From Apophysomyces variabilis (lineage: Eukaryota > Mucoromycota > Mucoromycetes > Mucorales > Mucoraceae): DNA of 64,000 nucleotides. The notes below the pieces were generated by a model, which worked only from the letters and a program-made list of their open reading frames with translations, had not been told where the DNA came from and ran no database searches. This document shows, piece after piece, positions 953 through 64,000 of this stretch. The stretch lies in contig MZZL01000386.1 of the NCBI GenBank assembly GCA_002749535.1, forward strand, positions 310,001-374,000. The letters are read 5' to 3'. The translations under genes were made by a program, and so were the position numbers. Position 1 is the first letter of the stretch. Each line of letters begins with the position of its first letter.

Positions 953-3094
953 TCAACTTGTGTTGTCGGGCACAGCGTCTGGCTTCAGTGATCCCCGATG
1001 TCCTGTGCCCGAATCTGGCTTTTCGCACAGTGATACCTGCGAATTTGAGTGGCTAACAACAGGTGATTGTGAGAAAGGTTTATCCACTAAAGGTGATAAT
1101 GGATGTGATGTAAGGGCAGGCGATTGCCCCATCGGTTTATCCACAAGAGGAGATGGTAATATTGACGTCGCCATGAGCGGTGACGTTGACAGCGGCTTAT
1201 CTACAAGAGTCGGATGCGTTGATTCGGATGTTTGTGATGTGCTCCGGCCCTGCTTGTGAATCGATGATGAGGCATTTTTCTCAGGATCTGTGAAGGGATG
1301 TCCCGATGTATCCTTTTCATAGTTTTGCATGGTTTCCGCCTTTTTGCCATATTTTGCCTTCCTCTTTCGAAGAAATACGTAAGCTCCAATGGCAAGTCCA
1401 ATAAAGAGAACCTATATCATTATCCTATTAGGTCTGTATCCTCGCTTATGCTATTATCTTCTTACCGATCCGACGCTGCCTACGACGGCTCCAATGATAG
1501 TAGGCGTCTTATCAACGATAGGTGAAGGTGTCTGAGTTGGTTCAGGTATGGTAATATTTTTGATGGGGCTTGGAAGAACGTAATTAAGTGCGTTTGCGTT
1601 GTATTGTTCGCTCCAGGACATGTTATTCAGATTCAGTATAAACATCTGTGCAGGTATATAATCGTATGGTGCGACTGGCCCTATACCAAACAAAATAAGT
1701 AGCGTACTGTTGCCAATCATAACGGCTAGTCTCGTTGGAAAAAGGACACATTAGTACCATGTTTGTGCGGCCTACAAAGAGACCTCTGAATGTTACCTGA
1801 GTGACCATACAGTGCACCAGCCCCTGACGGTCCTTGAGGACTGTGCTGAGTCCACTGATTTTGAACTGTATCATACGTGTAGCAGTAATCAGATACCGTT
1901 GTGAAGTTGTTGGCTATTGGTTCGTTAAGCCTATCGATAAGCATTTCATACTTCAGTCTTACGCTCCGGCAGTGTGGCTGCCCCTCCATACACCAACAAC
2001 ATGTTTGTTCCCGGGACTGAAGACGGGTACACCTCGAGATTAAAATTTGTCATAGTTACATCATTCACTTACTCCAGGTTGTAGTATGCATACTGCGTTC
2101 GGATGGCGTTACGGAGCCTTGCGATTTGGTTAAGTTCCATTTATCAGCCGTGGTATCATAGACAAGGATGTCCTGCATGGATATGCTGTCGTTGGCACCG
2201 TATCCGCTAGTACCTCCAATAAAATATATTTTATTGTCTCCACCCATAGTTGCTGTGTGCCTGAACCGTACAATGGAATTACCCGGTAAAGGAGTTGACT
2301 GTGAGAAGGACCACTGAAACGTGGTATAATTGAGAATACGAAATGTCACATCCGCGCTTCGATTATTAAGAACACTATAAACAAAGGAGAATCAATCATT
2401 GCAAGCCAAAACACATTGGTCCTTACCTCCATCCACCCCAATAATAGATACTTTGTTTCGACTTCACGTAGTTTCCTGTGTGTCCAAAACTTTTTCAATG
2501 TTAGATCAAGATGAGGGAGCTTTAGCCATTTTTTTGCTATTTGTAATCGAACATACTATTGATCGATCCCCCCTGAAGGAATGGTACTCCAGTTCTGACC
2601 ATCAAATTTGGTTGTCTCGTTATTAAGAAGCCTGGTCATAAGAGTTTTTTTTCCATTAGCGGCATCTGTTAACACTGCAGCACCGTAACCAACACCGCCG
2701 TTGACCACTAAAGCTTGGTCGGGAATGGGAACCATTGCGAAATCAGCATTTGGTTCAAGTGTCATATTAGAGTTGCCGTCAAAGTCAAAGGGGTAGTCAT
2801 GATTGACTTGTGTCCAGTTTGACATTAGTTCGTCCCGGGTTAGGTTACGGGACACATCCAGTTTATAGAGCCCTTCATATGTTTCGGCTGGAAAACGGAA
2901 AACAAAAGTAAGAGGTATGCCACCATAGCAGTAAATCGTATTGTGTAGCAGAGTACATCCTTTTAACGTAGATTTAGTACATAATTCGGTGCTGATCATA
3001 GGTGATGACCTCCACATATTCGCCTGCCAGGATTAGCTGCATAGACAAGAAAATTGATGTTGAACAATACGATAATTGCAGCAAGGAATCGCAT
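953..3094 (-). CDS. Kelch-repeat, single-pass membrane protein
   Basis: The encoded protein starts with a signal peptide (MRFLAAIIVLF... at 3094). Kelch-type beta-propeller segments follow, with typical phrases such as NTIYCYGG, KIYFIGGTSG, NMLLVYGG and LLILFG. Then come a Thr/Pro-rich stalk, one transmembrane helix (IIGAVVG...IGLAIGAYVFL), a basic stop-transfer RKRKAK and a cytoplasmic tail. I infer about eight exons. Introns that restore the frame include 3009..2960, 1796..1726 (71 nt, TACTAAT branch) and one of about 56 nt before NMLLVYGG. The ligand is unknown; such proteins are common in Mucorales and are presumed to be cell-surface or endomembrane receptors. The tail carries a repeated SPLVDKP motif. 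Exon edges between 2350 and 2590 are the least certain part. Confidence 0.85.
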
Positions 3095-3869
3095 CAGAAA
3101 AAGAACGAAAAAAGAAAGAGCTAGGTCATCATTGTTTCTGTATAATTTGTATTTTTGTGTACAACTTGCATAGCGAATCTTCCGACTTGAATTTTTTTTT
3201 TTGCAAGATATGCCAAAGGAAAGGTTGCAGAGCTCGTGTAACCTTTCCCAAAGTTACTTTTGTTTTATTTCGCTTTTTGGCCGGATAATCATCCTTTACG
3301 CTGATTATCGATATTCATCTTCGCGTGGCTACCGATTGATTTATATGCACTCGATCACTAGTAAAAACTTAAAGCAGTTAGAATAAATTACAACTGCCTC
3401 TGGCAGAAAGAGGAGAAAGCTCTCTAATGGTTTGGCACAACGTTTTGCACACAAAAAAGGAGCGATACAAAGCATGTTGGAGATTTGTTCTCTGGTGACA
3501 CAGAGAAGAAATTTTAAGTTTGTGTGCATTTTAGACGAACAGTTGATTAAAAAAGGCGAACACATATACCCTGAGCATTTGCCGAGTGAAGCATTATCAA
3601 GCACCCGATCAGAGAGAAATAAAAGGAAGGAACTATGAGCTAGATTACATCGATTCTCTCTTTGTGTGAACGCGCTTTATCCTCATGCCTCTGAGATAAA
3701 GTGCGTTTGTTCACAACAGCGGACAACATATATTCCGCTCGAGTCTAGTCAGAGTAACAGAGTTATGAACGGGGTGTGACTATGGAAGTTTACGGGGGGT
3801 CCCCGATATTATCTCGATGTGGACTTGCAATCGTGATATCGAAACTCTTTCGTACTATAGTTGAAATGC

Positions 3870-4240
3870 ACGCGACCATGCTTTGCAGGGGTCATCTTCA
3901 GTGGATAGACCGTATCGGACTGTTATATATCTTCTTAAGAAATGTAATCCAACGTAAATGAACGTGGTATTGCATGCGGTAGTAGCTGTGATGGAACGTA
4001 ACATGATAACCCACGGTAACGAGCGGAGCATGAAGAAAATATAAGGAATTGAACTGTGTCCCTTATTGTGTGTCCAGTATGTCGCACATGATCTTTCAAG
4101 CAAGAGCTGTACTACGTTAAACATGATATCAGCTCATGTTGCTATCATCGGTATTTACGAATTTTTATTTCTGCATAACACAGTATACCTCTTCCTTAAA
4201 CCTACCATGATCAGGTTGTGCTGGATCGTCTGAAACGGAC
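3870..4240 (+). repeat. Diverged dispersed repeat, copy B
   Basis: This is the partner of 290..590, in direct orientation and about 3.6 kb away. It shares the GAGCGGAGCAT, TGTACTACGTTA and GGTTGTGCTGG blocks. No terminal inverted repeats or coding frame could be recognised. It may be an old non-autonomous element, or a segmental duplication that placed one copy on each side of the kelch gene. Confidence 0.5.
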
Positions 4241-6830
4241 TATTTATGGCTGAATAGTATGTAACAACTGTCTGTAATCCAAGGAAGAGTAATTCTATGG
4301 TTTCATACGCAGCATTATGTGTGAATTCAAGGTGAAGACACGGATCAACTCGAAATGCATCTGCATTTCGCAAGTGTATCAGAAAAAAATGCACGCTGCT
4401 ATAAGAAACAGAGTTCAGGGACTGAATAAGCAGCTGTCTGAATGAAAGAGCTGTCAAATGGAAGTGTCGGTTACAGATATTAGACACTACGGGAAGAAGA
4501 TACTCGTAGATCTTACTTAGAAACTGGAAAATGTCTGTAAAACTTCCAATTTTGACGGCATACAATGGTATCTTGGAGCTTGTCTACAGCCACTGAAAGA
4601 CTTGATGGAGATTTTATCAAGACCCGGTAAAATCTTCGTCAACGCATTCCAAAAGCGTGGTTAACTGTTCGTTGAGAGTTTGCCACGGTCACCAATTCTA
4701 CGCTTTTCAAAGATGCTATCACGGCTGTTTTCATGCCGTAACACCCATCTTTACGTTGAGCAAACATGAATTCCTACTTGCTTTTATTGCAGCAATAGAT
4801 GAAATCAAAAGCTTCTCAAATGGGCCTTTAAGAAAGCTTATTTGCGCTTGGTCTGTATCGGTTCGTTTACACGCTCGCGTTCCGCTTTTTCTTTACGAAT
4901 ATTTGTATCTTCCAAGTGTAAGAATGCCAAAAGAAAGAATTATCTCGGTTTCAGATAGCAAGTGTCCATAGAGATGGATCTGTCAAGCTTTGTGCGACCA
5001 GCGTTCTTGTAGGTATCGCATAGATAAATTGCGGGTCACAAGCATCTGTCTTGGCAAATATCTAGATCTCTACCTAAGTCTTAGTTGACCTACTCTATTA
5101 GCTAGGTTGTGTACTTTAGCAAACAAAAGGTAGGGTAAGGCCAAATAAAGCCGTCTCTGGTTTCTAATTAAGCAATTCATCAACGAATAAAAAGAACTGG
5201 ACAAAACCTTGGTACCAACCATACCATCCCTTATAATGCATGCCATGCAAATCAAAAAAAAACACTTGCTTACCTACTTTCGCTAGATGATATGAAGTGT
5301 AATCATTTCAATCTTTAAATTGCTTCCTATAAGATTTTTATGTACATTTCTAATTATTTTTCGTTTTCTTTGCATTGTTTTTGTCTCGCCACGTTAGTTC
5401 TGCTTGTGTATTTAGTTCTAGTTCAAAACTTTGAGGGTTTATTAGGGCCATTCCGACGTTTTTGATCGTCTGCTTCATTCATAACACAGTTCCTAGCCAA
5501 ACGTCTATAGACTATCTATTTAAACAGCAAAAGTTAATCCTCAAGGTGGTCTGGAAAAGAATGTAAGAGGAGAAACCAATGACGGTTGCTGTTACAAGAC
5601 GCCAATGAACTATCATCTTTGCTTTCCTGGACTGCTTCTTGCATTTCCCATACTGTAGAGCTGCTTTATCAATGTGCTAAATGAACGACCCTCATACATC
5701 CGCACTGCATACACATAAAGCAAAGCCCAAAGAAATGCATAAAGTGCTGTTTGTTTTCTCTTTACGTCGTAGCTTTATCGTTTTCTGCAGCTCACGTTAC
5801 ATTACCTGGAGATGGCAGGGGCCGAAAGACTAACTCGGAATTCGCCCTTGATCTTTTTGGGATACCTCTTTCTTTTTCTGGGTCTTGTGGTCTGCAGCTT
5901 TGGTTGATAGAGTCTAAGCGGACGTATTGAGTTTCACACATTGGTGTACTAATCAGATATATCATGTTCCCATGGAAACTCCTTGAATGGTTCAGAATAT
6001 GTTGCCATGCAATTTATAGCACAGATAGTGGTTTACTCTAGCACTTATAGATCGATCTGTATGACTTGATCCTGGTTTATTCACGTCTGACAGGATAGCT
6101 ATTCATTCTGTTTTATAGTTGGTCGATAGGATATCTTGTGTAGCTGGATATTAACCACATACGATCAAAACAAACAAGCAATACGTACTGGTTGTTTCCC
6201 TTTCATTCTCTTTGCAAGGCACCAGGTAGAGTTACGCTTTCATTTGGAAGCACACGTGATAAAAAGTCAAACGGTCCGTAATCCTGAGGATGAACCCTGT
6301 TATTTTCTTCCTTCTTTCTGGAAGGAAAGGGGATGTCATAGTGATTCCGTTACACGGAACGCAAAATGGCAAAATTTCTTTTTTTACCCTCGCTGCATGA
6401 CAACAGTTGGCGAACGGAGTACTAATTGGGCTAAGCGATGCCAACTTCTTCTCACTCTCTGTCTCACCAAGGCAACACATTGGTTTCTTGCTTAATCTAT
6501 GCAAAGCCCACTTGTGGAAGGGGACGGGGATATGTCAATTGTAGGTTATTTTCTGTCTAAAGAGAAGATACCATTTGTCAGGGATAGAACGAGAGAAAGA
6601 GAGAAAGAAAAAGAAAGCGTATATGCACGGCTAATGGCGGAGTGTACTGCTTAGTTTACTTTCCACCTCGGACCTCTTTTTTTTCTTTTTGATCCCTTCC
6701 CTCTCAACATCTGGAAGTAAATCTTCTCCTTCCCCTTAACTAGAGGAACAAAACCCCTTGAACAAAAAAAAGTACACCATCCCGTTAAGTTAACCATATC
6801 CGTTACTCTCTCTCTCTCTTTTTTAAACCC
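4241..6830. other. Gene-poor intergenic stretch
   Basis: I see no supportable gene. Open frames such as 4155..4565 (-), 4657..4971 (+) and 6136..6495 (+) have no recognisable domain, no splice-compatible neighbours and no codon pattern like the real genes nearby. Pyrimidine-rich tracts near 6660-6830 probably belong to the promoter or 5' leader region of the gene starting at 7072. Confidence 0.5.
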
Positions 6831-12753: not shown

Positions 12754-14585
12754 ATGAAGACTTATACTCCCGAGGAAGTGGCACAGCATAACACGGCCAA
12801 CGACTGTTGGATCATCGTCCAAGGCAAAGTTTTCAATGTGACCGAATTTCTGAACGATCACCCCGGTGGAAAAAAAGTCTTGCTCAAAGTCGCTGGGAAA
12901 GACGCCTCGAAACAATTCAAGTCTTTCCACAATGACGCCATTATGCAACGCGTTGGTTTGCCCATGCAAATTGGTGTCATTGGCACGGGCGAACCTGTCA
13001 AGGAGGCACCAGCACAAAAACAACAACAACCACCCAACGCTGCCGCCACCAACAGTGCTCCTTCTCCTCAGAAAGTCGTGTCGAACCAAACTGTTACTGT
13101 TTCCGCTGAAGAATCTCGGTTTGGTGAAGGTCTACCCTATGGTGACCCCACCTGGTATCAGGATTGGAACAGGTAAGCAAAAGATTATATTTCCTAGCCT
13201 GGCCTACTTACATTGTTTTTTTCCCTCAAGTCCTTACTATACGCCATCTCATATCCAACTTCGTAAAGTGGTTCGTGAATTTGTTGACAAGGAAATTACC
13301 CCTTTCTGCCATGAATGGAGCGAAGCCAAGGCTATTCCACGTGATGTTGTGAAACGGGCTGCCCAACTGGGTCTCTTGAATGCCGTTTCCGGTGCAGGCA
13401 AAATCAAATCGGCTCATGCTTTGATGAAATATCCTCTTCCCGGAGGCGTCAAACCAGAGGAATTTGATATCTTCCACGAGTTCATTTGTGTAGACGAGAT
13501 TGCTCGCTGCGGTTCTGGTGGTTTGATTTGGGCCTTGATGGGTGGCCTGGGTATCGGCTTGCCTCCGGTCATGAACTTTGCCTCGGATGAGATCAAGCAA
13601 AAGGTCGTTCCCCCTTGCTTGGCCGGTGAAAAGTTCATTGCATTGGCTATCACCGAACCCTCGGCTGGTTCGGATGTGGCCAACTTGAGAACCACGGCAA
13701 AGGATATGGGCGATCATTGGATTCTCAATGGCGAGAAGAAATGGATCACACAGGGTGCCTATGCTGACTTTTACACCGTGGCTTGCCGAACAGGTGGGGA
13801 AGGAATGGGCGGTGTCTCCCTTCTCTTGGTCGAACGCACCATGCCCGGTGTGAACGCACGTCAGATGGATGTGATGGGGATGTGGGGTTCAGGTACTTCC
13901 TACATTACCTTTGAAGATGTGAGTATCGGAAAGAGGAAAATCTTTGTGCATGATGTGACCGAAGGATGGCTTATTCTTTTCGTATTAGGTGAAAGTCCCT
14001 AAGAGCAACCTTATTGGCAAGTTGAATCAAGGCTTCAAATACATCATGCATAACTTTAACCATGAACGTCTTGGTATTGTCATGCAAGCTAACCGTCTGT
14101 CGCGTGTCTGCATTGAAGAGGCCTTCAAGGTAAAGAAAGACGAAAAAAGAGAAATGATCACTTTACTCACAGTACACATAAAAATGGTTTAGTATTCACT
14201 TAAGCGCAAGACCTTCGGTTTGCGATTGGCCGAACACGCTGTGATCCGTAACAAATTGGGTCATATGATCCGTCAATGTGAAGCTACCCATGCATGGCTT
14301 GAAAATGTCTTGTATCAAATCAAGACGCTTCCTCCCCAAAAGCAGCCCTTGTTGTTAGGAGGTCCTATTGCTTTGCTCAAGGCTCAATCCACCCAAACTT
14401 TCGAATTTTGTGCACGTGAAGCCGCTCAAATCTTTGGTGGCCTAGGCTACACACGTGGTGGTCAGGGTGAGAAGGTCGAGCGTTTGTATCGTGAAGTGAG
14501 AGCCTATGCCATTCCCGGTGGATCCGAGGAAATTATGCTTGATCTTGGTGTCAGACAAGCGCTGAAGACAGCTGCCAAGTTGTAG
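12754..14585 (+). CDS. Cytochrome b5-fused acyl-CoA dehydrogenase
   Basis: Four exons (12754..13172, 13231..13918, 13989..14129, 14193..14585; 1641 nt) encode 546 aa. Residues about 1-80 are a cytochrome b5 heme domain: [16 protein letters not shown], then the heme-ligand motif FLNDHPGG and the second ligand in FKSFHNDA. A Gln/Pro/Ala linker leads into a full acyl-CoA dehydrogenase: [10 protein letters not shown] and WITQGAYAD in the FAD/substrate region, and KRKTFG near the C-terminus. The end has GGSEEI where medium-chain enzymes have YEGT, so the canonical base is absent there. The Glu of NHERLGIV sits where long-chain and isovaleryl-type enzymes place theirs. The family likely oxidises fatty or branched acyl-CoAs. 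The b5 domain suggests electron transfer other than through ETF, which is inference. Confidence 0.95.
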
Positions 14586-18864: not shown

Positions 18865-19809
18865 TTATTTAATTTTCGTAGAGTCCATCATTTCGGATGA
18901 GGCATCCTGAATCAGGAATCGATAGAAGAATGGTATCAAAGGAATCGTAGCCGCATGCCAAAGAGAATGGGCATCCAGTGTGGCATACCACGGTGGGAAA
19001 TCAAAGACTTCTAAGCCCATGGCACAACTCACCAAGACAACAGATACACCCGCCATCCATGCATAGGGCCTGCAACGCTTTTTCCCCCAAGGTGTATATT
19101 GCAAAAGGGACCACCAAAGCCAGAGACTGGTCTGCAAAATCCCGACGATGATACATGCCGTCATATTGTAACCGTAATCAAACCGTTCCCGACAGCTAAG
19201 ATACGTGACATGCCCCACAAACAGAAGGCCACAGAAAGCCATCCAAGTCATCAAAAGACCGTGCGAACGAACATGGAAAATCCTTGTCACGCCCAGGAAC
19301 AGGCCATAGAGAATATAAAGCCCTGCGCTGAAATAGTCTAATTTCTCCGTCCAGCCAAAATCGCGCGTATGAAATACCGTGCTCCAGAGCCATGCATTCA
19401 TTCCCACGAGGGCCAATCCACGATAGTAAGGTTTCAACCAATACGTGTCCGGCACGGCTTGTCGGAGGATCCGAAGGTAGCGTAGATGCATCCACCCATT
19501 CAAGACGGAAAACAAGACGGACGCCGGCTCCTGCATGCCCCAGACACGTCGGAAAGGCCATTTGCCGTGAAACTGGTGCACTCTGTCTCCATGTGCTATG
19601 GCATGTGCTGTCAGTAACTGCATGCATTCGTACCGGCAATTATCGCGCGCAGTCCACCATGTCAACCGAAGGTGCGCGGGCAGTAATTTCCCCGCTTCCG
19701 TCAAAGCACAGTTGTCTACGCACAATTGGTATTCTGGTAAACGATCGCCACTGGATGCTGTACATAGACTTAACCAAGCTAGTAACAGGCAGAGGACAAG
19801 CTTGGTCAT
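18865..19809 (-). CDS. per1: Per1/PGAP3 GPI-anchor remodelling hydrolase
   Basis: A single uninterrupted frame encodes 314 aa. It has a cleavable signal peptide, a Cys-rich lumenal segment (LCVDNCALTEAG, NCRYECMQ) and about seven membrane helices. The CREST-superfamily residues are visible: an early Ser region, HTRDFGWTEKLDYFSAG (His and Asp), and the late pair DAHSLWHAATIPL. Per1/PGAP3 is the ER/Golgi phospholipase A2 that removes the sn-2 acyl chain of GPI anchors so that a longer chain can be installed. Length and topology agree with yeast Per1. The lack of introns is notable beside its intron-rich neighbours. Confidence 0.95.
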   Translation of the reverse strand: MTKLVLCLLLAWLSLCTASSGDRLPEYQLCVDNCALTEAGKLLPAHLRLTWWTARDNCRYECMQLLTAHAIAHGDRVHQFHGKWPFRRVWGMQEPASVLFSVLNGWMHLRYLRILRQAVPDTYWLKPYYRGLALVGMNAWLWSTVFHTRDFGWTEKLDYFSAGLYILYGLFLGVTRIFHVRSHGLLMTWMAFCGLLFVGHVTYLSCRERFDYGYNMTACIIVGILQTSLWLWWSLLQYTPWGKKRCRPYAWMAGVSVVLVSCAMGLEVFDFPPWYATLDAHSLWHAATIPLIPFFYRFLIQDASSEMMDSTKIK

Positions 19810-20241
19810 GGAGAAGAGCGAAAAGAAAAAAAGGAGCTACTGGATTCGGCAGGAGCAATGATGTCATGGTAGCAATTGGATAAATGGATGAGCCGAACAA
19901 AGAGAAAAAAGATAGCCACTTTTGTTTTTTAGCGTTCTCTACTTATTTTCCGGACACTCCATCAGTACGGGTATAACCGATAGAAGAAACCACTTTTTAA
20001 TGAATTTCTTGTACTATGTTACAAAACGATGTTTGGATAGATAACTTAGAAGAGATAGGGTTGTGGCGTCAAAATTTTTGGTCATATATTGCATCGGCTA
20101 GAGGTACCAACAGTAACTAATAGTACTTTCAGGTGGAGCGTACGTTTCCCTGAAGCGGAATTAACAAAATACTCCTCTTGTGGATAGCAATAAAAAGGAT
20201 GCCCAAGTCCAGTCAAGTTTGACCATGCAATGTTCATATAT

Positions 20242-23200
20242 TTACACACTGTTAAGGTTTTCCATCTTGTCTACGACGCTTTCCAACTCTGCAGTGTCAC
20301 TTTCCGGCAAAGAAATATCGCTGGCACCGTTCATCTGTAGTTTGATCGCCTCTAACGCTTGCTGGAGTGTTTTACCGGTACCTAAACCATTGTATTAGAA
20401 CGACGCACTTTTTCTTTAGCGAATAGAAGCCTACTGTCAATTGAGCTCAGAAAACGTATGAGTTCTTTGCATAATTCGTAGTCATTTTCATCCATTGCTT
20501 TTTTAAGCAGTCGTATGGTATCCTGAACTATGAATTAGTTTGGATGTACATGATCAAAGAATTAGCTTACCGTTCCGCCAACTGCTAATGGCTGCATTGT
20601 CTGGAGAATGATCAAATAGGATGTTGCTGTCCTCAATCGCCCATCTGCCAAACATAGCTAAGGAAATCGTGTTGTTAGAGACTACTCCACCAAATATTGG
20701 GACCTTTGGTTACCTCAAACAAATCTTTTGGTTTCCCTACGGCCGCGAATAAATGGCCCCAAAGTGCAACTTCTGTTTTCCTTGCGCAGCTCACAATGAC
20801 ATCTAGCGCATGAGGAAACTGGTCAAGAAACTTGATCACCAACGGCAAGATAGCATCTAGTACATGCTATAAACATCGGAAAGGAAACATAACACAAACT
20901 AATAAATTTACCTTCTTCTAACCGTTTATCCGTCTCCTCTTCCAATATAGTATGTAGTAGTATTTCTAATGCATGACCAAAGTAGACCAATTTTTCGTAC
21001 GCACGAGCAAAAACAACAGCATCCTCTTCAAGTCCACGCTTTAATAAGTAGCGCAGAACATGATGCAAAAAAAGTAAGGTCTATGAAAGAGTCGGTAAAA
21101 CATAAGGAATAAACAAAATCGAAAGATTACCTTTGTGCTCATTTTAAAAATCATATAACCCAGAGAATCTCTAGACACCATACTTTGTTCAATCCCTGCT
21201 ATTATCCCCTTCTCCAAAAGGACAGCTAAAAGGTTTCAGCACATAATCTGCTAATGAGAGAAAAACTTACAGTGAGGATAAAAATCAAGGGGGATATATA
21301 TGACATCTTCGATCAGTTGCTTCGGACTGTCTGTCTGCCACCGCGAATATCCGTCAATACCAACAATTGATGTAGACGGTGAAGTTGGTTCTGCGCCTAT
21401 ACGGTAGCCTAATGAATAAGGTCGTCCTATATTGGCCCTAGATGCCAGGAATCCGGGTGTTGTAGGCGTCGATGGCTCACTATCAGTAATATCGTGCGCA
21501 AACGAACGAAAATTATATTCATCACCACGTAGTAAATTGGTAAAAATCTATAAAACAGCAACTTATATAAAAGGGGAGTAACAAAGAAGAAAATTTACCT
21601 TTATGCCAGATCCCGTCACTGCCCATAGTGAGGTGCTCATGTTGGCAACACTTTTTCGTCCAACCCAGTAATACTCTATTTTATCTGCAAGAACATATAG
21701 TTCATACCGAATTGGAGGAGGAGTATTGCTCCCATAAAGGTCGGAATCATCATCATCATCCTACCAAAGAACATTAATAGATGTCGAAAAGATTCCGGTA
21801 ACATACAGCAACTCTGGGTATCAGCATAAGTAGCTTTCCGTCTACCAAAAGTATAATATTCGCCGACATCACATCATCAATTGTTGTGAACTGGTCTACA
21901 GAAATATGGCAGCTGTAAATATTTTTCGGGCATAGGTCGCTGACATGAATTTACCTCCACTATAACCGCTAAATAAACTAATACCACGCACGCGATTCAC
22001 TCGTGCCACGATACCGATGAGAGAGACTTGCCGTATCATTTCAAGATAAGCAGTACTTCCAGCCCCATTCGTTTTGTTCCCAGATCCGTTGTCGGCGTTA
22101 AGATGTATACTATATATTGTCAAGGTATTCTCGGTAGTGTAAACCAATAGATAACTGCCGCAAACATTTATATACACAGGTGCATGGTGGAGTACCTCTG
22201 TATGCAAGATGTATGCAGTATCCAAGTTTGTGTCTCGTGAATAAAGATGAATCTGGGACAACAGCTCAGTCCCTTTGGCATGGCTTATACTAAAACCTAC
22301 CTCATAGAATTTTTCACGTCCTGTCTGCGTAATTTCGCAAGCTGCGACTAAGAGGTGTTTATACCATACTAGTCCACCTCTTACTTGAAAGCGTTGTTCT
22401 TGCTGCTCGTTACCAAAGAGCTTCCACCGACCAGAAACAGTGTTATAATGCGCCAATCCTCGTCTTCCCGCAATGGCAATAAACTTCCCATCGATACCGA
22501 TGGACGCATACTAGTTGTTCCGATTAAGATACCTTCATCAACCTTAGGAACTGTGTTTTACTTACTCGGATTGGCCAATGATCTGTGATATACATTGTAG
22601 GGTACTGCACGACAAGATGCATTAGAAAGGTATATCGGTTACGTGTGCCTGTAGCTACCATGATATGTGTCCATGCAACAGCATCTGGGTCTATTGTAGT
22701 CGTGTTGTTGTCATGATGATCACCGCCATTATTGTATAGCAACAGTCGGTCGTCCATCTGCAACAATCCTCTTCGGGTGTTATCCTGCTTGATGTTAATA
22801 GGGCCTCTTTGTGTTCTCTATGTTTATCTTACCGAAGTATGGTAAGAAGTTGTTGCTGATTTCACAAATGGCAATATGAACAAGGCTATGTCAGTGTGCA
22901 ATGATTCTCTCTTCTCTGCCCGACCAATGTCGCTCAGTACAAACAATTGATGGTTTCCTAACCCCCAAAACTAGAACGCATAGAACGAAATCAAAGTTAA
23001 GCAAGCATTTTACTCTAATATTTTGTCTTTCAATACTATCGTAAGTAGAGCTCACCATTGAATGGACATTTTTGAGATATATATCCTGAGATATATCGGG
23101 CCTACCCTCAATGAACAATGTGTATCAACAACTCGCAATGAACACATCTTGCCGCTTCACTTTTTTCCTTTACCTTCTTGACTTAGTTCTGCTCATGTTT

Positions 23201-28275: not shown

Positions 28276-28928
28276 ATTGTGAACGACATGTAATGTCACA
28301 ATGCTATTCAAAATCTATAAAATGATGTCCGAAGGGTTCTTAGAGCGGGAGAGTTGCTCGCAACTTCACATAATATTTTTATGCACACACAGACAATCAT
28401 GCTTGTTGTAATGCTCCATTGCTGGCTCCATAATTTATTATAGGTTCCATTATTAGACCATGAACACGAAAAAAATTTAATTGTAAATGCATGATGAAAT
28501 CATAACTGTGGCATTTGTGATATGCCGAACCGCAAGAGTAAAATTGCAATCCGTATCGGACTCGGCAGAACCGCACCAAGAGTCGACTAATAAGAAGTTA
28601 CGGCTGCAAAAAGTACCTATTCTTTTCTTCATTTTCTTTATAATTGGGCGGGGGAATCAGCAGCGAACCGCCAACTCCCCCAAAGCAAAAATTCTGGTCT
28701 CGAGACACCCGAAGGCGTTCGCAGCAAAGCCGACCACCGCAGTGCAATGGCAATCAGCCTCACTGTGTGCCCAGCCTCCATGATCACCAGACACACGACC
28801 CAGGTAAGTATGAGTTGCAATCGTTGAAATTGGTGGTCATTTTATACTTTTTGTTCAAGCTCAGACGCAGTCCTCTTTCTGTGACTTTTGTTCGCCATTT
28901 GAAAGTTTGGTTTGTCCGATGCCCAAGC

Positions 28929-29038
28929 TTTGGCTGTTACTGGTTTATTCAAAAAGTTTTTGAAGATTTCATCCAAAATCGTTTGAAGATTCCGCCCAAA
29001 ATTGTTTGAAGATTTGGAGATAAAATTTATAAAAGAAT
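28929..29038. repeat. Left inverted-repeat end of the Fanzor element
   Basis: The sequence GTTACTGGTTTATT...GCCCAAAATTGTTTGAAG...GGAGA...AAATTT...AAGAAT matches the reverse complement of 34288..34393 over its whole length with indels. The central GCCCAAAATTGTTTGAAG is identical in both. This copy has an internal expansion in which about 22 nt, (A/C)TC(C/G)..CCAAAAT(C/T)GTTTGAAGATT, is tandemly repeated. Confidence 0.6.
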
Positions 29039-29172
29039 TTGCCAGTAATTGTTGGTGAGTATCCTCTGTTAAAATGAGATAGTGAGCTTGCCGATGTGAT
29101 CACCTGCGAAAGATAAACGTTAGCAAAACAATCCTAACTAGAAAAATTGGCTAATACACTTATCGTAAAAAC

Positions 29173-31605
29173 CTAAAAGTCCTCAGTGGGACCAACCGTA
29201 TTCGTAACGGCAGTATATTGATCTAATGAGGGCCGGGCAAACTCTCTTAGTCTTCCTTGCCCAGACCAAATCGACTCCGCAATCCAGAATAAATTCTTAC
29301 TGGCCAAAACATCTCTATCCCATAGCATCTTACAGTTTTTGCATACCAAGATGCTATAGTGAGAAACGCAATCGGCTGTGGTAAGCTTTTCCAGGGACCT
29401 GCATCTGCAGCTATGGCACGCCTAAACGACGTTTGTGAGCATGATTTTGCTGTCATCGCTTTAACTTACTTGCGAAGAAAGGTATTCATCGATCGTGAGC
29501 ACCAATAGTTCTTCGCGCTTTTCCCTCCGTTTCAAAGATCTCCATAAGATATTCATAACTCCCTATCGGTGTCCTTTGTAGTTGCATCGATCGTTGAACA
29601 TCCCGTCCCCAAATACAATGAGTGACACTTTCCTTTCAACAGTGAATTTCTTTTGCCTCCAGTGAGGTAAACGCTTGGTTTTGTTAAGCGTACTGCGTTC
29701 GGCAGATGTATTTGGCTGGGGAAGGCTATCAATTAGCTGTTAATTACTGCAGGTAACGAACTGTCATGCAGATAAATACTAACCTTTGGTGTAATGGATT
29801 GCCAACTTCTGAATCTTTATTGACCTGCTTCTTCCGATTTTTTCGCTTCCTTTTCCGGGCTTTTCTGTTTGATCTCGTCCGTTTCCGTCTACTACAGTTG
29901 TACTCTTTACCACCAAATGCTAGTATATTGACCATTTCCTCTCTTGCTGTTTGCACGCCTTCATATTCTCGAAATCGAGCTTCAGCTCGATGCGGACCAT
30001 AAAACTGGAAAAGCACGTCCATGTTGCCGAATATAGATCGTAGATAACCGTTGTAGGTTTCGATATGCGCTGTTTTTCCAGACTCTAATGAGGTTTCAAT
30101 GTTCTGTATACCCTGCTGCTCTTTTTCCTTCTCCATTTTATTCTGTCTATTCGGCGAACCGGTATACACATAATATTCTTTGGTTGAGTATCTCCTTATT
30201 TCATGAGGTTCTGATCCGCAGCCATAAGAAGCAGCAAAGACTTGATTGATGCCCGGATCAATCGCACATGGTACAAAATTGTCATAGATATGACTACCGT
30301 CAATGTCTTCAACAGAAAGGCTGACGTCCGTGACCACTGACTCTGTCTTTAGTGCGCGAGCGAACTGGAAGTCAATCGCGTAGCCATCGCTGAAGGTAAT
30401 AGTTTTGAAAGCGATTCGTCCACTGCTACCGAAATTTTGAAGCTGCTCCAGACTAACTAACATTCTTGAGAAATTTGGCTACAAATAATCGTAGTAAATA
30501 CCTGTCAAATCCCAGCTTGTGGAAATCAAAAACTTGATAAAACTGGGCAAGCTGGTCCTCATAGTCTTTTCGATGGCTGATGTTCGTTAACTGTTGAAGA
30601 GTCTTGGAATCAACGCAGATAAATCTCCAATGAGTTGAAAAAGACGGAGACAAAGAAAACAATCGCAGTAGATCCTTAAAACTATCTTTTGCCTTTTCAG
30701 ATTCTTGGTTTTTTGGAGCGTTTTGTTTTTGTTTGGCTTGTTCATGGTCTTGATTGTATTTGGTGAGTATATATGCCAACACTGGAATGTAGCTGCCTGG
30801 AGAAGCAGATAGTTTTTCCGCGTTTGTTTGCCATTCGGGCATCAATGTCGCAAACTCGCCACAAATGGTTTCTACAGCCCGATCAAAGTCCGAGACAGCA
30901 AGTTCTTCTTCGAAAGGCCAGTGATGATCACCTCTAGCAACGAGTTCATAAATATAGCCTCCTGCAATGGCTTTTGCTTTTTTTTTTGGGATAAGCTCTA
31001 TACATATGTAGTTAGTTGAGAGGTATGGACTATGCATGCTTTCATCTTACAAGTATTAGTTTTGTAAGTCGTCTCGAGATATAAAACTTTAGGCGGCTTT
31101 CAAAGTTTTCAGCGGCATTGTTGGAATACGTGGTGGCTAACGTGACACAGGCCGCGGAAACGGCATCACTGTAACCCGAAAAATTCCTAACAGGATAAAG
31201 AGCATTTGGATGGTTGTCCAAGAAAGCTCTCTAGTGATCACGTAGGTCTTGAGGAAAATTGGGGTTGCTGTTGCTAATATTGATGCCCATGATAAGCTGG
31301 CACGCCGAATACCAGAAGTTTTGAGTATAATTATAAGAAGGCACCGGCCTCTCACAGTTCGCAATAATGTACGAATTGACAAATAGCTGGGCACGGAAGA
31401 TAACTTCCCTAAGGAAGGCCGATAATCCAACGCCATTCTCCTGGAAAAACTCTCGAAATTCTGGACGCAGCACAGATGAAGCTGGTAACTTTCGAGTAAA
31501 AGTTTCATAATGATTGTCATTTAGTTTCTCCCCGATAACTCTCTTTTTTGTTTTGGAGGATTTCCTGCAATTCTTAGATGATCGATAACGCCGCAGCTCG
31601 ATCAT
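29173..31605 (-). pseudogene. Fanzor (eukaryotic TnpB-like RNA-guided nuclease), two in-frame TAG codons
   Basis: Five exons join perfectly in phase: 31605..31051, 30995..30502, 30452..29784, 29725..29470 and 29421..29173 (2223 nt, 741 codons including the stop). All four introns are GT...AG and 41-58 nt long. The protein has the Fanzor layout. A basic N-terminus is followed by a helical half and then RuvC-I CAIDPGINQVFAASYG (Asp codon at 30257..30259). Next comes the VFGDGMF strand where the classical RuvC-II glutamate is lost, then the relocated glutamate in TIDEYLSSQ. A zinc finger CHSC...CKNC and RuvC-III in WDRDVLASKN follow. A Lys/Arg-rich insert (about 29820-29880) lies between RuvC-I and VFGDGMF. 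Two TAG codons interrupt the frame, at 31233..31231 and 29565..29563. There are no frameshifts, so inactivation looks recent, or the stops are allelic or sequencing variants. Confidence 0.85.
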
Positions 31606-34287
31606 GGTTTGTTGAATTTATTTGAATTCGATGTCTCCTCCGCTTAGAGTTGTCTTCCACGTTCTTTTGCCGCTGAAAACTCTGCCTTCTCTGTAGCATT
31701 CAATTTTCTTTTTACTCCAACTTACACAGGAAGAGACATTATCAGAGATACCTTGCGGATTAAAAGCTGTATTAGCTTACCAAGTTTTTTTCCATGGCGC
31801 GCGTTCAATGGACATACTTTTTATCGTTTATTTGGATGGCCACTCTGCCCGCAGTCTTTGCAAAAGACTGAACATGATTTGTGTGCAATGATAAATAAAG
31901 GCTATTGATCAAGAAAAACTTGTCCCTTCTGTAAGACTCACCCTTCTTCTCGTTTTAATCGTTCTGCTTCTTGTTCGAAATATCTTCTGATTTTGCAAAG
32001 GCAGACGATATCTTGCCAGTTCCATTAATGGGAACGCGGAATCAAAGCTGTCAGTTTCGAGCAGCACCACTCAAAAACGGCTTGAAGCATAATGAGAAAA
32101 GACAACGCAAAAGAGATGTGATAGAATGTTCTTGCTACTTCTGTTGTCTCTTTTAACGTATGACGGCAATCTGAAACCGTCACATGCGTAATTGAACAAC
32201 TTTTGCTCTTCACTTATTAATGATGGTGTATCCAGACTATAAGTTCGTCGTCTTTACTTGGAAACAACTTTTTCCATTATGCCATTCAATGATCTATTCC
32301 TCGACATTCATAAATAAGACCTTCAAAAGTTTAAGACCGACTTTTTCATTTTTCTAACAAAAGCAAATTCTATTAAATCTTTTAAGCTGGTAGGTTGGAC
32401 AATTATTTTTAAACAGAGACGCATCATGCTTGAAACAAGAATGTCAAATTAAGCTTCAGGGTCTACGCTGCGCTACTAAATCAAGGTTATCAAAACCATA
32501 CAAGCACCGCTATACATGACTTTTAAGTTGTGTAGGCCTAACCGGTTTTCCGAAATTGTAAGTTACAAGCCGATATCACATACTTGACAGGTGAGTCGTG
32601 CCAAATGTCGCGTATGTGTAAATTATACAGTATACTGCTATATTCTACGATACTCATGTTTCTGTCAAAGAAGATTGCAATATCTAATTCTGAAATGCAT
32701 ACAAAGACACTTGTAGGTCAAGGAGATAAATCTTTATGACAAACCTTTGTTTGTGGCCTCCTCTACTATTTGAAACTTTTCTGTTCTTCTTAAATCATGC
32801 AAAGAGCAAAGGTGAATGGACTAATAAACTGATGGAAACGAAAAGGGTCAATAGGAGGTCTATGGAACCGTGTAATACGGAATCAGTCATTGATGATAAC
32901 CACTGAAGGAAAAACCAAGGAAAGTGGACGTGAAAAAGAGAGTGAGTATTATATTTGTGCTTGTCAAAATAAGTGTCTTCCCTGGCTGGATCCGAACTAG
33001 GTTTTTGCATTCAACGTTTTGTTTCGCACCCGGTTCACGCAAACCTATGATCTGGATTCTACAACTTTGTTAAATTTCGTCCATTGCACAAGGGGTGAGG
33101 ATGGATTCAATTAAAAAAAATATAACCATCAAAACTAGAGAAAGAGAATAGGAAGGTGCGGTATGTGATATTTAGTGTGGTCAACAATTGCATAACTGTC
33201 AAAGAGAAGGGAGCGATTATTTGACGGCTACTGTCAGTAAGGTTTCATTTACTTGATTTACGGGGATGGACCAGTGTGTATGAGATGAATGAATTGATCT
33301 AGAGATGATACAGGTGCGATGTGTCATTCTTGGTCATCTTCTGCTCAAAGAAGGGCCATTGCTACTATTCTTTGTACACTCATTGTTAACTTTACCACCA
33401 AAATATGAATTCATCGTTGTTTTAATTAGAAAGAAAAATCAAACTTTCCTTGATATGCATTCTGGATCGCATTTTATAAACAAAACAAGATCATATTTAG
33501 TGGAATTTTTAAGTCTTTCATTTTCTAATTTTTTGTCACTTATTGTTGTAATGACTGATTACGCCATGAATAGCGGTCCTAAACAGGAAGTACTACTCTT
33601 ATTTGTTGAACACAGCGGGGCAGCTATGGATGAGACCTCACGTATTGAGGAAGCTGATATGGTAGAATAAACAAAGGTTCCATGATTATTTTGTTCGTGA
33701 GAGAATCTACAAGATATCGAGAACAAGGGTCAGACGGTTGGGGAACCATGGCTTGCTTTAAATATCACGTAAGCCTCCATGAGATGTGTTATAGAATTAG
33801 CCGAAAGTAGAAAGTAGAAGTACAATTGAAAGCCAGCTATTTAATTAATCTGTGCTTAGAAGAATAAAGAAGAACTCTTTTTCAGCTGTATCAATTCTGA
33901 GCCTGGAATTGTAGTCCTATTATCCTCTACTACGATTCTAATCTAGTAGTCAAAAGCAGTATGTCTCGATGTAATGCTCAGTAATTCAAACTATTTACGT
34001 TGAAGATTACTATTGACTTTGTAATTGATATATTTGATAAGGTTCAACCTTTACTTACTGTCTTTCCAAACATCATACAGATATCTGGCGTTTTGCATTA
34101 CACAAACAAAATCGGCTACACTGTTTTTGGTGATATTCTCCAGTATCCTCAATAGCTTTAACCATTGGGTCGTTTGGAATTACCTTCTAATTAGTACGAT
34201 GGTTATTTATGACTTTGGGATGTAGTTGCACTTACCCTCTAAACGAGCACACGCTTTTGATTCAAAATCTCATATTGCGAATTTTTA
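31606..34287. other. Gene-free interior of the Fanzor element
   Basis: This AT-rich stretch of 2.7 kb lies upstream of the Fanzor start. The open frame at 33305..33670 (+, 121 aa) has no recognisable domain, and its hydrophobic stretches look like AT-rich translation. I see no transposase here. Confidence 0.5.
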
Positions 34288-34393
34288 ATTGTTTGATTAG
34301 ATGATTCTTCAAAAAAATTTGACTCTCCGATACTTCAAACAATTTTGGGCAAAACATTTGAAGAAACCCAATAGCCAGTCACTTTGCCAACGT
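34288..34393. repeat. Right inverted-repeat end of the Fanzor element
   Basis: Reverse complement of 28929..29038 with indels. In addition, CTTCAAA (34333..34339) and TTTGAAG (about 34357..34363) flank the central CAATTTTGGGC segment and can pair as a hairpin stem of 7 bp. Confidence 0.6.
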
Positions 34394-49069: not shown

Positions 49070-50928
49070 TTAGTTACCATGAATCCAGCCCGTGGCAAGC
49101 GAGTTGGATCGTTTACTCATTCTCTCCAATGCTGGATCGACACGACTCCCTCGCCTTGAAGCTGGTGTTAATTGTAATCGCCTCATACAAAGACTGGGCT
49201 CTTCACTTCGACGTCGCCCCTTTTCATCTATAATCCTCCGATGATACCGGTCTAATCGACTAATTTCACTCTGACTCGCACTACGCACACCAAGATACGT
49301 TCGTCGAGACTTCCCAGACCCAATGGTTCGCTCTTCAAGTTCATCAGGAATGACGATCATACCCGCTGCTACGCTCACGCGGCGACCAGTAGGATTGAGG
49401 ATCGGCCGATCCGGTAAGATCGTCGATGGTAACTGGCCTCTTTCTTCCGTACTTTCCACCTCTTCCGCCGCCGCTGCTTCCAAGGCCAACCATTCTTTTC
49501 GATTCTCGGCTAGCCGCTTGAGCAGTTCATCTGCTTTTGGAAACAAAGCCGCAAAGATCTCGAAATACGGACTTACTACAAAATCACCAAACTGTAGACT
49601 GATGGTTGTCTGACTCGTTTCATTACGATCCATGCTAGGTGACACGGGTAATCCATGCAGTCGTTCCGCATCGCCTTGACCAAAAAATTCTTCACATACA
49701 AGCTGAGACCACATGTGACATATCGGCCATGGCCTCAAGGCGTTACTAATATCGGCCGCGTGCAAAACTGTCTGGCATAGCAATTGACGCTTGTTGAAAT
49801 CAATTAGAAAAGTTGCTGGCTTGCATTTCGCTCCTTCTTCCCCACTTTTAGCTTCTGGTTCTTTTGTTATTTCGTCCTTTCCTTTTTCTTCTTCTTCTTC
49901 TTCTTCTTCGTTTTCTTCGTTTTCTTCCTCCTTAATGCACATATGATCCCGGAAATAGGATATGGGGCTTTTATCTCCTCGACTTGAAAACAGATCCCTT
50001 AATCTGTCGTCTTCTATATCATCCTCAGGAACCCCGGATTCTTCTCTTTCGTTAATGATTTCTATTAATGCAGTCATATTCTCCTGTAATTCATAGTGAA
50101 ATATCATATCCGTGGCCAAGATCATTTTGATTATAAATGACCGTAATTCCAGTTCGGTAGTAGGCACACCTATTTTGGTACTTGCATTTTGCACATGGCG
50201 TAACAATTGGTGTTTTGTAAGCAGATCCATCGTCAATGAGCATGAATAGCTTTCCAAAACGGATTTGTTATTGTATCGTACAGCAAGCTCTGTTTTCAAA
50301 TTGACCTGATAATTGTTGTTCTTCCCTGGCTAATCATATTTTCGCGAGCAAAGTCAGTTCGACGAGTTATACACGACACGCATCCTATTCACCAAGAGAC
50401 CCTTACATGACCAATGTCGTGACATAGAGCAGCAATCAGTAAGGCGGCCATATCCACACGTGACAAGTAATGTTCAACCTCGAAATGACATAGCATATGA
50501 TACAGCACCATTGTCACGTCAGCAGCATGATAAAATGAATGATAGGCGTTAGGGAGATACCCCTTATCTATATCCATCAAGAAATCGAGAAATTCAGATG
50601 GACTTATACCAAGAGCTGATAGTAAGTCAAGACGTTTGAAGAACCCGAGGATATAGCCATAGATTTCAGCGCGTGACTTGTCAAACAGCGTAACGTCCAC
50701 TGTGGGTTCGCATGGTCGGGTCGGATCAGCCATTTTGATCATTTTCTAACATGAGATGAATAAAACTGATGTCCTTCTGTTTTGTTTGTCACATGTCCTC
50801 CATCTCGAGGAATAAAAGCGTAAAAAACAACACTAAGCCAGACAAAGAAAAAAAAGGGAAAAAGTACGCACTCGCTCAATAACAAAGAGGTCTTGAGCCG
50901 ACAAAGTGTTGTGTCGAAGAATGAGCAT
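49070..50928 (-). CDS. Class I 3',5'-cyclic-nucleotide phosphodiesterase
   Basis: The HD-type PDE catalytic domain is clear: NAYHSFYHAADVTMVLYHML, then AALCHDIGH joined across an intron (50406..50330) to PGKNNNYQVN...YNNKSVLES, then ATDMIFHYE, and finally TVLHAADISNALRP. The His and Asp metal ligands (YHxxxHA, HDxxHP and HAADISN) are present. An insert rich in Glu (49840-49930) interrupts the domain, and a basic Ser/Arg C-terminal tail follows to 49070. Downstream exons are secure. The first exon (50928..50872, MLILRHNTLSAQDLFVIER) is tentative, but it gives an in-phase model of 551 aa, and more N-terminal exons may exist. The enzyme hydrolyses cAMP or cGMP and so tunes PKA-dependent growth and dimorphism. 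Confidence 0.88.
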
Positions 50929-62155: not shown

Positions 62156-64000
62156 ATGATGAATCATCCCTCCATGGACCACAATCGAACTGACACGAGC
62201 GCTCATGTTATTGGAACAACTGGAGACGCACCCAAAGAACCTTGTTCTCGAAGGCGAATGTTGAGTGCTGAAGGAAACGGGATACTTCGTGATTCACCCG
62301 AACCTGACCACCCACCACCTTATGCTGGTCCCGACGAAGAACTCGCACAATCGAAAAAATCCTCTTCTGCATCCTCTAGTAACGGCTCCAATCGTCGTAA
62401 ATATCCAAGTTTCCCGGAAGGCACAAAGCCCCGACGAGTGATTGGGAATTATACACTCGTCAGCACCTTGGGATCAGGCTCGATGGGAAAGGTGCGATTG
62501 GCAGTGCATAATATCACAGGTGATAAGGTAGAGTATTAGAACGTGTGTTGATTTGGATCGAAAAAAGCACAGGAAACGAGGCCTTTTCCTGATCCTTGTA
62601 CATAGCTTGCGGTGAAAATTGTCCCAAAGGTGGGACGAAACAAGAAAGAAGGAAAAGATGAGAATCGCGAAATACGCACGATCCGTGAGGCCAGCATCAT
62701 GCTACTATTACATCATCCTTACATTGTCAGTTTGAAAGAAATGGTTGTTCTTGATTCATATAACTATTTGTTCATGGAATACGTGAATGGTGGCCAGTTA
62801 CTCGATTATATCATATCGCACGGGAAATTAAAAGAAAAACAAGCTCGAAGATTTGCACGTCAAATTGCGAGTGCACTAGGTGAGAGGAAAAAGAAACGCC
62901 TTAAGTTGCCTTTAAAGGGAACTCATTGTCATTTTACTTTAAACCACAGATTACTGCCATCGTAACTCTATTGTACATCGAGGTAAAAACAAAGAGCTCT
63001 ACTTTGTTTGTCAAGTTCAATCTGGCTGTAGATTTGAAGATTGAGAATATCTTAATCTCATCCTCGGGTCATATCAAAATCATCGATTTCGGACTTTCAA
63101 ACTTATTCTCGCCGCAATCTCACCTTTCAACATTTTGTGGTTCCCTTTACTTTGCCGCGCCAGAATTACTACATGCCAAAATCTATACAGGTCCCGAAGT
63201 GGACGTATGGAGTTTTGGCGTAGTTCTCTTTGTTTTGGTATGCGGAAAAGTCCCATTCGACGATCAGAATATGCCTGCATTGCATGACAAAATTAAACGA
63301 GGTGTAGTAGAATATCCGAGTCATTTGAGTTCAGGTAAAACTAGGGTGGAAAATGGAAAGAGAAATTGGAAAGAAAGGAAGAAGCCGGCTATTAAGTAAT
63401 ACAAACTGCTCACACTACATAGAATGCAAATCGTTGTTATGTCGAATGCTGGTGACGAATCCTAATCATAGAGCCACAGTTTCCGAGATTATTGTACACC
63501 CATGGATGAATCGAGGCTATGATAATCCTGTCGACAACCATTTGCCCGATCGCGCACCCTTAACCTTACCTGTGGATCCGGAAGTCATCAAGGGAATGAC
63601 TGGATTTGAATTTGGCACGGAAGCAGAGATTAGACAACAGCTTGAAGCAATTATCGTCTCGGAAGAATACCAAAAAGCAGCGAAAAAGTTGGCAACAAGA
63701 TCAGCAGAGTCACATCGGAACAGCAGTCAATCTCGGTTTAGTCATTCTCCCTTTGCAGAGAAGAGGTCATTTACGATGCCTAATGATGATCCACAGTCCA
63801 TCCCTTTGGCTTACCATCCGCTTGTATCGATTTACTACTTGGTCAAAGAACGTATGGATCGTGAGCGTCGCGGGGTGGAGAACGGGCCGTCTTCGTACAT
63901 CGGTGCTGGATCACTGGACGATATTACGTCGGCACGAATACCCAATATCTCTTTACCCGAGACGGCACATGCATCAAACGTTGTGGATCCATCGATGCTG
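62156..64000 (+). CDS. kin1: Kin1/MARK-type serine/threonine kinase, 3' end outside the window
   Basis: The start at 62156 ([10 protein letters not shown]) gives a disordered leader of about 95 residues. The kinase domain spans several exons: [15 protein letters not shown] (glycine loop), LAVKIVPK (ATP-binding Lys), [12 protein letters not shown], then [11 protein letters not shown] joined across an intron to DLKIENILI (catalytic loop), [23 protein letters not shown] (activation segment with the LKB1-type Thr), [16 protein letters not shown] and [11 protein letters not shown]. After the domain come [33 protein letters not shown] and a Ser-rich stretch, as in Kin1/Kin2. The coding frame is still open at 64000; the KA1 domain expected at the C-terminus is not in the window. 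These kinases control polarity and exocytosis at the cell cortex. Confidence 0.92.

Follow-up and report, generated by a model that had tools for sequence, protein, structure and literature searches.

A decayed transposable element carrying a predicted seven-exon Fanzor gene, probably a Fanzor1, in Apophysomyces variabilis, with open copies of the gene elsewhere in the genome

Introduction

A 64,000-nucleotide stretch of the genome of the mucoralean fungus Apophysomyces variabilis (contig MZZL01000386.1, positions 310,001 to 374,000; hereafter the window) contains a gene whose predicted product resembles Fanzor, and the question is whether this gene is a nearly intact one that was recently silenced or a relic, and, if a relic, of what. 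In the first-pass annotation, which used the sequence alone, it was described as a five-exon gene with all nuclease motifs and no frameshift at all, interrupted only by two TAG codons, so that either the copy had died very recently or an intact allele or paralogue existed. Our comparison with the other copies in the genome favours, with a probability of roughly 0.9, a different reading, in which a DNA transposon with inverted ends beside TA and a seven-exon Fanzor1 gene as cargo left a decayed copy at this locus, with intact siblings elsewhere.

Results and discussion

Identification of the gene as a Fanzor, probably a Fanzor1

The five-exon model was rebuilt from the sequence of the minus strand (31605-31051, 30995-30502, 30452-29784, 29725-29470, and 29421-29173). 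It comprises 741 codons including the terminal TAG, with GT/AG at all four introns and internal TAGs at 31233-31231 and 29565-29563 only, and RuvC-I, the RuvC-II glutamate, the zinc finger, and RuvC-III are located where they had been placed. When the best frame of each of these exons is taken, three stops remain, the terminal one included, whereas 1000 dinucleotide shuffles gave 26.3 on average and never fewer than 14; therefore, the openness of this model is not due to chance.

The first-pass assignment to Fanzor was borne out by two kinds of search. The read-through protein (with X at stops) matches the Pfam family PF07282, a Cas12f1-like TNB domain, with an E-value of 5.6e-8, and both the window reading and an intact paralogue score above the cut-off of that family. 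Against PDB, the window reading alone matched SpuFz1 weakly (0.0024), and a profile (A2) made from a five-row alignment of an intact paralogue, the window reading, and three distant relatives matched SpuFz1 at 1.9e-10 and GtFz1 at 4.8e-9, followed by LaTranC (8e-5 and 9.8e-5) and a chain named Transposase (0.0068). The match to SpuFz1 spans RuvC-I, RuvC-II, the zinc finger, and RuvC-III, where DPN (RuvC-I), the glutamate of DEY..S just before the zinc finger, and WNRD (RuvC-III) of SpuFz1 are aligned to the profile; the catalytic residues reported for SpuFz1 are D383, E541, and D606 (PMC11423790).

The window reading also conforms to the Fanzor motif D-X(125,275)-[TS]-[TS]-X-X-[C4 zinc finger]-X(5,50)-RD given in PMC3627910: in the five-exon numbering, D415 is followed by 240 residues and then S656-S657-Q-A-C660, and the zinc finger (CHSC at 660-663 and CKNC at 685-688) is followed by 5 residues and R694-D695. 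The signatures in PMC10711439 are represented by DPG at RuvC-I (AIDPG) and by an alternative glutamate 6 residues before the zinc finger (E-YLSSQA-C), but the gaps of the literal pattern in that source (120-160 and 12-18 residues) differ from those of the window reading (~235 and 21). The window gene is a Fanzor gene with all nuclease motifs present, probably of the Fanzor1 type. A protein search of ~5.8 billion predicted proteins yielded no match at E ≤ 0.001 among 7892 candidates.

Seven-exon structure of the family gene

In the genome searched (38.7 Mb, 126 contigs), at least 73 matches to PF07282 and at least 130 stretches matching the read-through protein were found. The gene region was aligned for 30 copies, namely the window copy and 29 paralogues, some of them partial, with the more distant C100 and C126 left out. 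This alignment predicts a family gene of seven exons, A to G (Table 1), so that the five exons annotated previously do not make up the whole gene; further exons lie upstream, and the family uses another frame at 31605. Judged by its splice signals, the putative first exon would read MLQAVFEW...LKREE, the ATG being our choice; it is open in the six young copies tested and in C59. From exon B on, intact copies encode 818 residues. Exon C contains the knuckle KPCPSCGGIDHSKSSSKNC, and exon B, upstream of it, encodes another, CKDCGQNGHPNKRYKAC. Pfam gives no domain for these zinc knuckles, which we call CCHC-like from their cysteine spacing, and we found no description of such N-terminal knuckles in Fanzors in the main texts of the open-access papers searched.

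Table 1. Predicted features of the Fanzor-carrying element (window positions, except for the last line)
Feature	Position	Strand	Basis and remarks
Fanzor-carrying transposable element, 5432 bp	28940..34371	-	Limits of homology among copies, inverted end repeats
Left-end inverted repeat, eroded	34325..34371	-	Inner limit approximate; base before flanking TA is C
Family exon A (first; putative start codon)	31942..32090	-	Splice signals, copies; here TAA 32027-32025 and one extra base before donor
Family exon B, first CCHC-like zinc knuckle	31781..31867	-	Alignment; here TAA 31823-31821
Family exon C, second CCHC-like zinc knuckle and N-terminal part	31051..31720	-	Alignment
Lesions in family exon C	TAA 31646-31644, TGA 31604-31602, 13-bp deletion 31579/31578, TAG 31233-31231	-	Alignment
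Family exon D	30502..30997	-	Alignment; here +2 near 30988
Family exon E, RuvC-I AIDPGINQVF at 30265-30236	29784..30452	-	Alignment, A2 profile
Family exon F	29470..29725	-	TAG 29565-29563; RuvC-II alternative glutamate in TIDEYLSSQ, 29496-29470
Family exon G	29173..29421	-	C4 zinc finger CHSC/CKNC, RuvC-III WDRD, terminal TAG; Pfam, alignment
Conserved 3' noncoding stretch, candidate omega RNA scaffold	28940..29172	-	Stop codon to right end, 233 nt
Right-end inverted repeat	28940..28985	-	Inner limit approximate; overlaps 23-bp tandem array 28952-29015
L054 element, shell 84-89% identical in DNA, Fanzor ~44% in protein	1554-6017 (locus L054)		Copy comparison

Damage in the window copy

Against the family frame, the description of a nearly intact gene could not be upheld. 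Numbered from exon B, the window copy contains TAA at codons 16 and 55, TGA at codon 69, and TAG at codons 197 and 705; the count of only two TAG codons thus missed the first three of these at least five nonsense codons. The copy further differs from the family by the 13-bp deletion and the 2-bp insertion, contrary to the claimed absence of frameshifts, and by an 18-bp in-frame length difference, and the putative first exon adds one more TAA and one extra base. The family frame is not open in this copy, which is unable to make the protein.

Several of these lesions are not private. The stops at codons 55 and 69 are present in the same 4 of the 30 copies, that at codon 16 also in 4 of 30 (three rows are gapped at these three codons), and TAG at codon 197 in 3 of 30. 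TAG at codon 705 is found in eight copies scattered over the tree, and a lysine codon in 22 of 30; the scatter suggests gene conversion among copies or recurrent change. The earlier alternative of very recent death or an intact paralogue therefore survives in its second half only: the lesions are common to several copies, which argues against very recent death, and the search of the same genome for copies lacking the stops recovered four, among the 30 aligned, whose frame is unbroken between exon B and the stop.

Two readings would keep the gene closer to life. A five-exon Fanzor gene that starts at 31605 and was lately stopped by two TAGs would account for the 741 codons and the four regular introns, but it is very improbable. 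Its ATG is out of the family frame, lies inside the conserved exon C knuckle, and overlaps an in-frame TGA; 13 bp are missing just after it, two bases are added in exon D, further nonsense codons lie upstream, and the lesions are shared among copies. The start of its second exon, 30995, is 2 nt downstream of the family acceptor at 30997. The deletion thus brings a chance ATG into phase and the downstream acceptor hides the +2, which together give the false look of an unshifted gene. Even less credit is due to the idea that the stops are read through or recoded and that the copy still makes protein. The presence of the codon-705 TAG in eight copies, above expectation for private decay, would fit recoding, but TAG also terminates the gene normally, codon 705 encodes lysine in 22 copies, a residue stands at this column in all three distant relatives of A2, and neither the deletion nor the +2 could be mended by recoding. 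The window copy serves as a caution that an out-of-frame ATG and a shifted acceptor are able to mask indels; by itself, it is an ordinary transposon relic.

Paralogues, age, and selection

The four open copies (on contigs C87, C93, C94, and C95) have all splice sites and are at least 99.3% alike, suggesting that the family is young and perhaps active. Nine young copies spanned exons B to G, with pairwise identities of 98.69-99.87%; four of them are open and five carry a single 1-nt insertion, identical in three. Identity of the window copy to the four open copies is 93.7-93.9%, and it reaches 97.28% with the closest sister (C70:254k), which is located on the same contig 85 kb away.

Differences at the first, second, and third codon positions number 41:39:61 between an intact copy and the window copy and 15:14:14 between the window copy and its sister. 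These proportions would be expected had the active line been under selection that ended before the last two copies parted; the gene would thus have been under constraint earlier, and none is visible since the split. By a crude estimate (NG86, no transition bias), dN/dS is 0.46 in the neutral-looking pair and 0.19-0.27 in young pairs, the latter on few changes. A second, distant set (L049, L050, L051, and L053) shows 94.9-96.9% DNA identity over 3.6-3.8 kb in the pairs compared, and also includes pieces that are open or nearly so, with 0 to 2 stops per locus.

The element and its ends

Homology among the copies ceases near window positions 34371 and 28940. Inverted repeats of the type TACTGGTTTATTCAAAAG form the ends, and TA adjoins both (28938-28939 and 34372-34373). 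Across the genome, there are 42 occurrences of an exact 16-base right-end word, versus 0 for the reversed control. TA is present beside 25 of 26 right ends detected with a pattern without flank (counted by eye) and beside 37 of 38 detected with a pattern that included TA; the base following TA at 37 right ends is A in 11, T in 14, C in 8, and G in 4. At the left end, C precedes TA in 9 of 11 copies (no flank in the pattern; one of these nine was irregular), in 4 of 5 exact left-end matches, and in 17 of 20 matches to a longer pattern that is biased by itself containing C. This one-sided preference would not be expected from a transposase that requires TA alone. A conserved CA lies to the left of the SpuFz1 element, and its adjacent motif is CATA (PMC10432273; one sentence of PMC11423790 swaps the adjacent motifs of SpuFz1 and GtFz1), which makes a trace imposed by the nuclease attractive; equally, the C may belong to the element.

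No transposase was recognized in the two frames (125 and 71 aa) scanned within the 5' half of the element in the window. As for the distinction from Fanzor2, which turns on whether a Fanzor1 is carried by a eukaryotic transposon other than IS607, inverted ends and TA were seen and these two 5' frames showed no domain. Among five young copies with matches at both ends, these are spaced at 6.9-7.1 kb in three, and at 8.5 and 12.2 kb in the others. A 9-bp duplication as the target-site signature was considered and rejected: TATCATAGC is present on both sides of C95:970k only and was not seen in the other complete copies, where TA was seen. The C41 and C59 copies have right-end-like sequences in direct orientation near their 5' part, perhaps owing to nested or tandem insertions.

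The 3' noncoding stretch and possible gene exchange within a shell

By analogy with the elements described in PMC10432273 and PMC10711439, the conserved stretch between the stop codon and the right end is likely to be the guide-RNA region, and the guide would be expected from the flank below 28938; its candidacy as an omega RNA rests on position, not on fold. In 11 further elements, this stretch is 79.9-94.2% identical to that of the window. Among distant elements that include the coding end, it is 84% (L054) and 78% (L052) identical, and the protein of the last exon only 51% and 43%. In L054, however, the 5' part corresponding to window positions 34349-32732 is also 85-89% identical, and its Fanzor shows ~44% identity to that of the window family over the protein. 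A shell kept around a different Fanzor points to gene exchange as much as to RNA constraint, and, because the 5' backbone is as conserved as the 3' stretch, conservation of the latter need not signify a guide RNA.

The consensus fold of the 3' stretch is weak (-5.0 kcal/mol, with compensatory change at 1 of 18 pairs); an earlier run gave -52.3 with another scoring, 40 rows, and the covariation bonus included, a value not comparable with -5.0. In two hairpins picked in this stretch, one pair changed on both sides, a number reached by 396 of 500 shuffles, whereas their double-change cells were reached by none of the 500. One of the pairs in the hairpin at columns 81-84/89-92 shows compensatory change in 9 of 31 sequences; the double-change cells of this hairpin exceed all shuffles and slid controls, but its pair count does not.

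Probable movement of dead copies and a possible mechanism

The window copy and its sister share the exon C TAA and TGA, the first TAG, and the +2, but their right flanks differ directly past the element end. An already dead gene was thus probably still copied, its ancestor having been broken before the two parted, and this would imply movement in trans (or gene conversion). A parallel would be the 'ghost' loci of PMC10432273. The scattered codon-705 TAG suggests that lesions may spread by gene conversion, and in that case their sharing would be weaker evidence for such movement. That the lesions came to be shared through conversion or through a duplicated segment, not through movement of a dead element, is a serious though less probable alternative: the codon-705 TAG and other lesions are common to separate branches, both copies lie on one contig, and homology to the sister stops at window position 32502, so that its left end is unseen. 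A duplicated segment, in particular, is at odds with right flanks that diverge exactly from the element end.

A mechanism consistent with these features can be outlined. In intact copies, the protein would bind an RNA from the 3' noncoding stretch that runs beyond the right end, with the flank past that end acting as the guide. The transposon-adjacent motif would lie beside the left end, C plus TA being the candidate. After departure of the element, the nuclease would recut the empty donor site and repair would restore the element. A transposase encoded elsewhere would do the moving, also of already dead copies such as the ancestor of the window copy. As a tentative and rather doubtful extension, all of these elements may be combined: a Fanzor1 family, young and possibly active, with two N-terminal knuckles and modular shells, whose dead copies move in trans and whose insertions are retained at a C-TA in the left flank, a trace of the nuclease's own motif and not of a symmetric TA target. 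The four open copies are nearly identical, and their right ends, flanks, and candidate guide-RNA region can be read; they offer a natural test of the part that a Fanzor plays in the persistence of its transposon and of whether living copies carry dead ones.

Comparison with known Fanzor systems

A close parallel is SPu-1/SpuFz1 of Spizellomyces punctatus (PMC3627910, PMC10432273; PDB 8gkh). It resembles the window family in its Fanzor1 motifs, in having inverted ends and putative TA duplications, in existing as many copies of which some are intact, and in the conservation of the noncoding stretch from the stop to the right end and of bases to the left of the 5' end. SPu-1 differs in being ~2.1 kb long with a single frame of 633 aa, whereas the window element is 5.4 kb long with seven exons and two N-terminal knuckles. 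Among other fungi, the MCi-, ROr-, and PBl- elements of Mucor, Rhizopus, and Phycomyces are also multi-copy Fanzor1 elements and, going by their description in PMC3627910, resemble the window family; ROr-4, PBl-3, and MCi-4 are described there as lacking a transposase of their own, and the 5' parts of MCi-2 vary between subfamilies, as in the window family. In contrast, duplications of 9 bp, 6 bp, or 11-12 bp are given for these elements, and MCi-2 and MCi-5 have no inverted ends (PMC3627910). PpFz1 of Parasitella parasitica and GtFz1 of Guillardia theta (PMC11423790; PDB 9cer) have the same nuclease layout as the window family. GtFz1 was matched by the family profile, and no chain named PpFz1 was among the five PDB matches of that profile; a cyclophilin-binding insertion has been described for PpFz1 (PMC11423790).

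Neighbouring genes

A U1 snRNA gene (28651-28811, minus strand; Rfam RF00003, 96.2 bits) is located 127 bp below the right end of the element on the same strand. The genome has one other U1 match, and the near upstream sequence is still common to both. An empty site was sought from the second U1 gene, but no match to the left flank was found. In L053, where a distant Fanzor element is located, a U6 match (3218-3338, minus strand) lies 11 bp below its right end. This sequence resembles the U6 gene L078 from the RNA start onward only, with no shared promoter, and is followed by LINE reverse transcriptase-like sequence (by eye); it therefore looks like a U6/LINE chimera, and the idea that Fanzor elements target snRNA genes was dropped. 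This U6 was the only match in an Rfam scan of 36 loci, and a tRNA scan of 50 loci (bacterial code) found a tRNA in L005 only, not in an adjacent position. Elsewhere in the window, the frames at 12854-13999, 18868-19836, 21899-22510, 49073-50329, and 62905-63396 match the acyl-CoA dehydrogenase, Per1-like, RIC1, cyclic-nucleotide phosphodiesterase, and protein kinase families, respectively.
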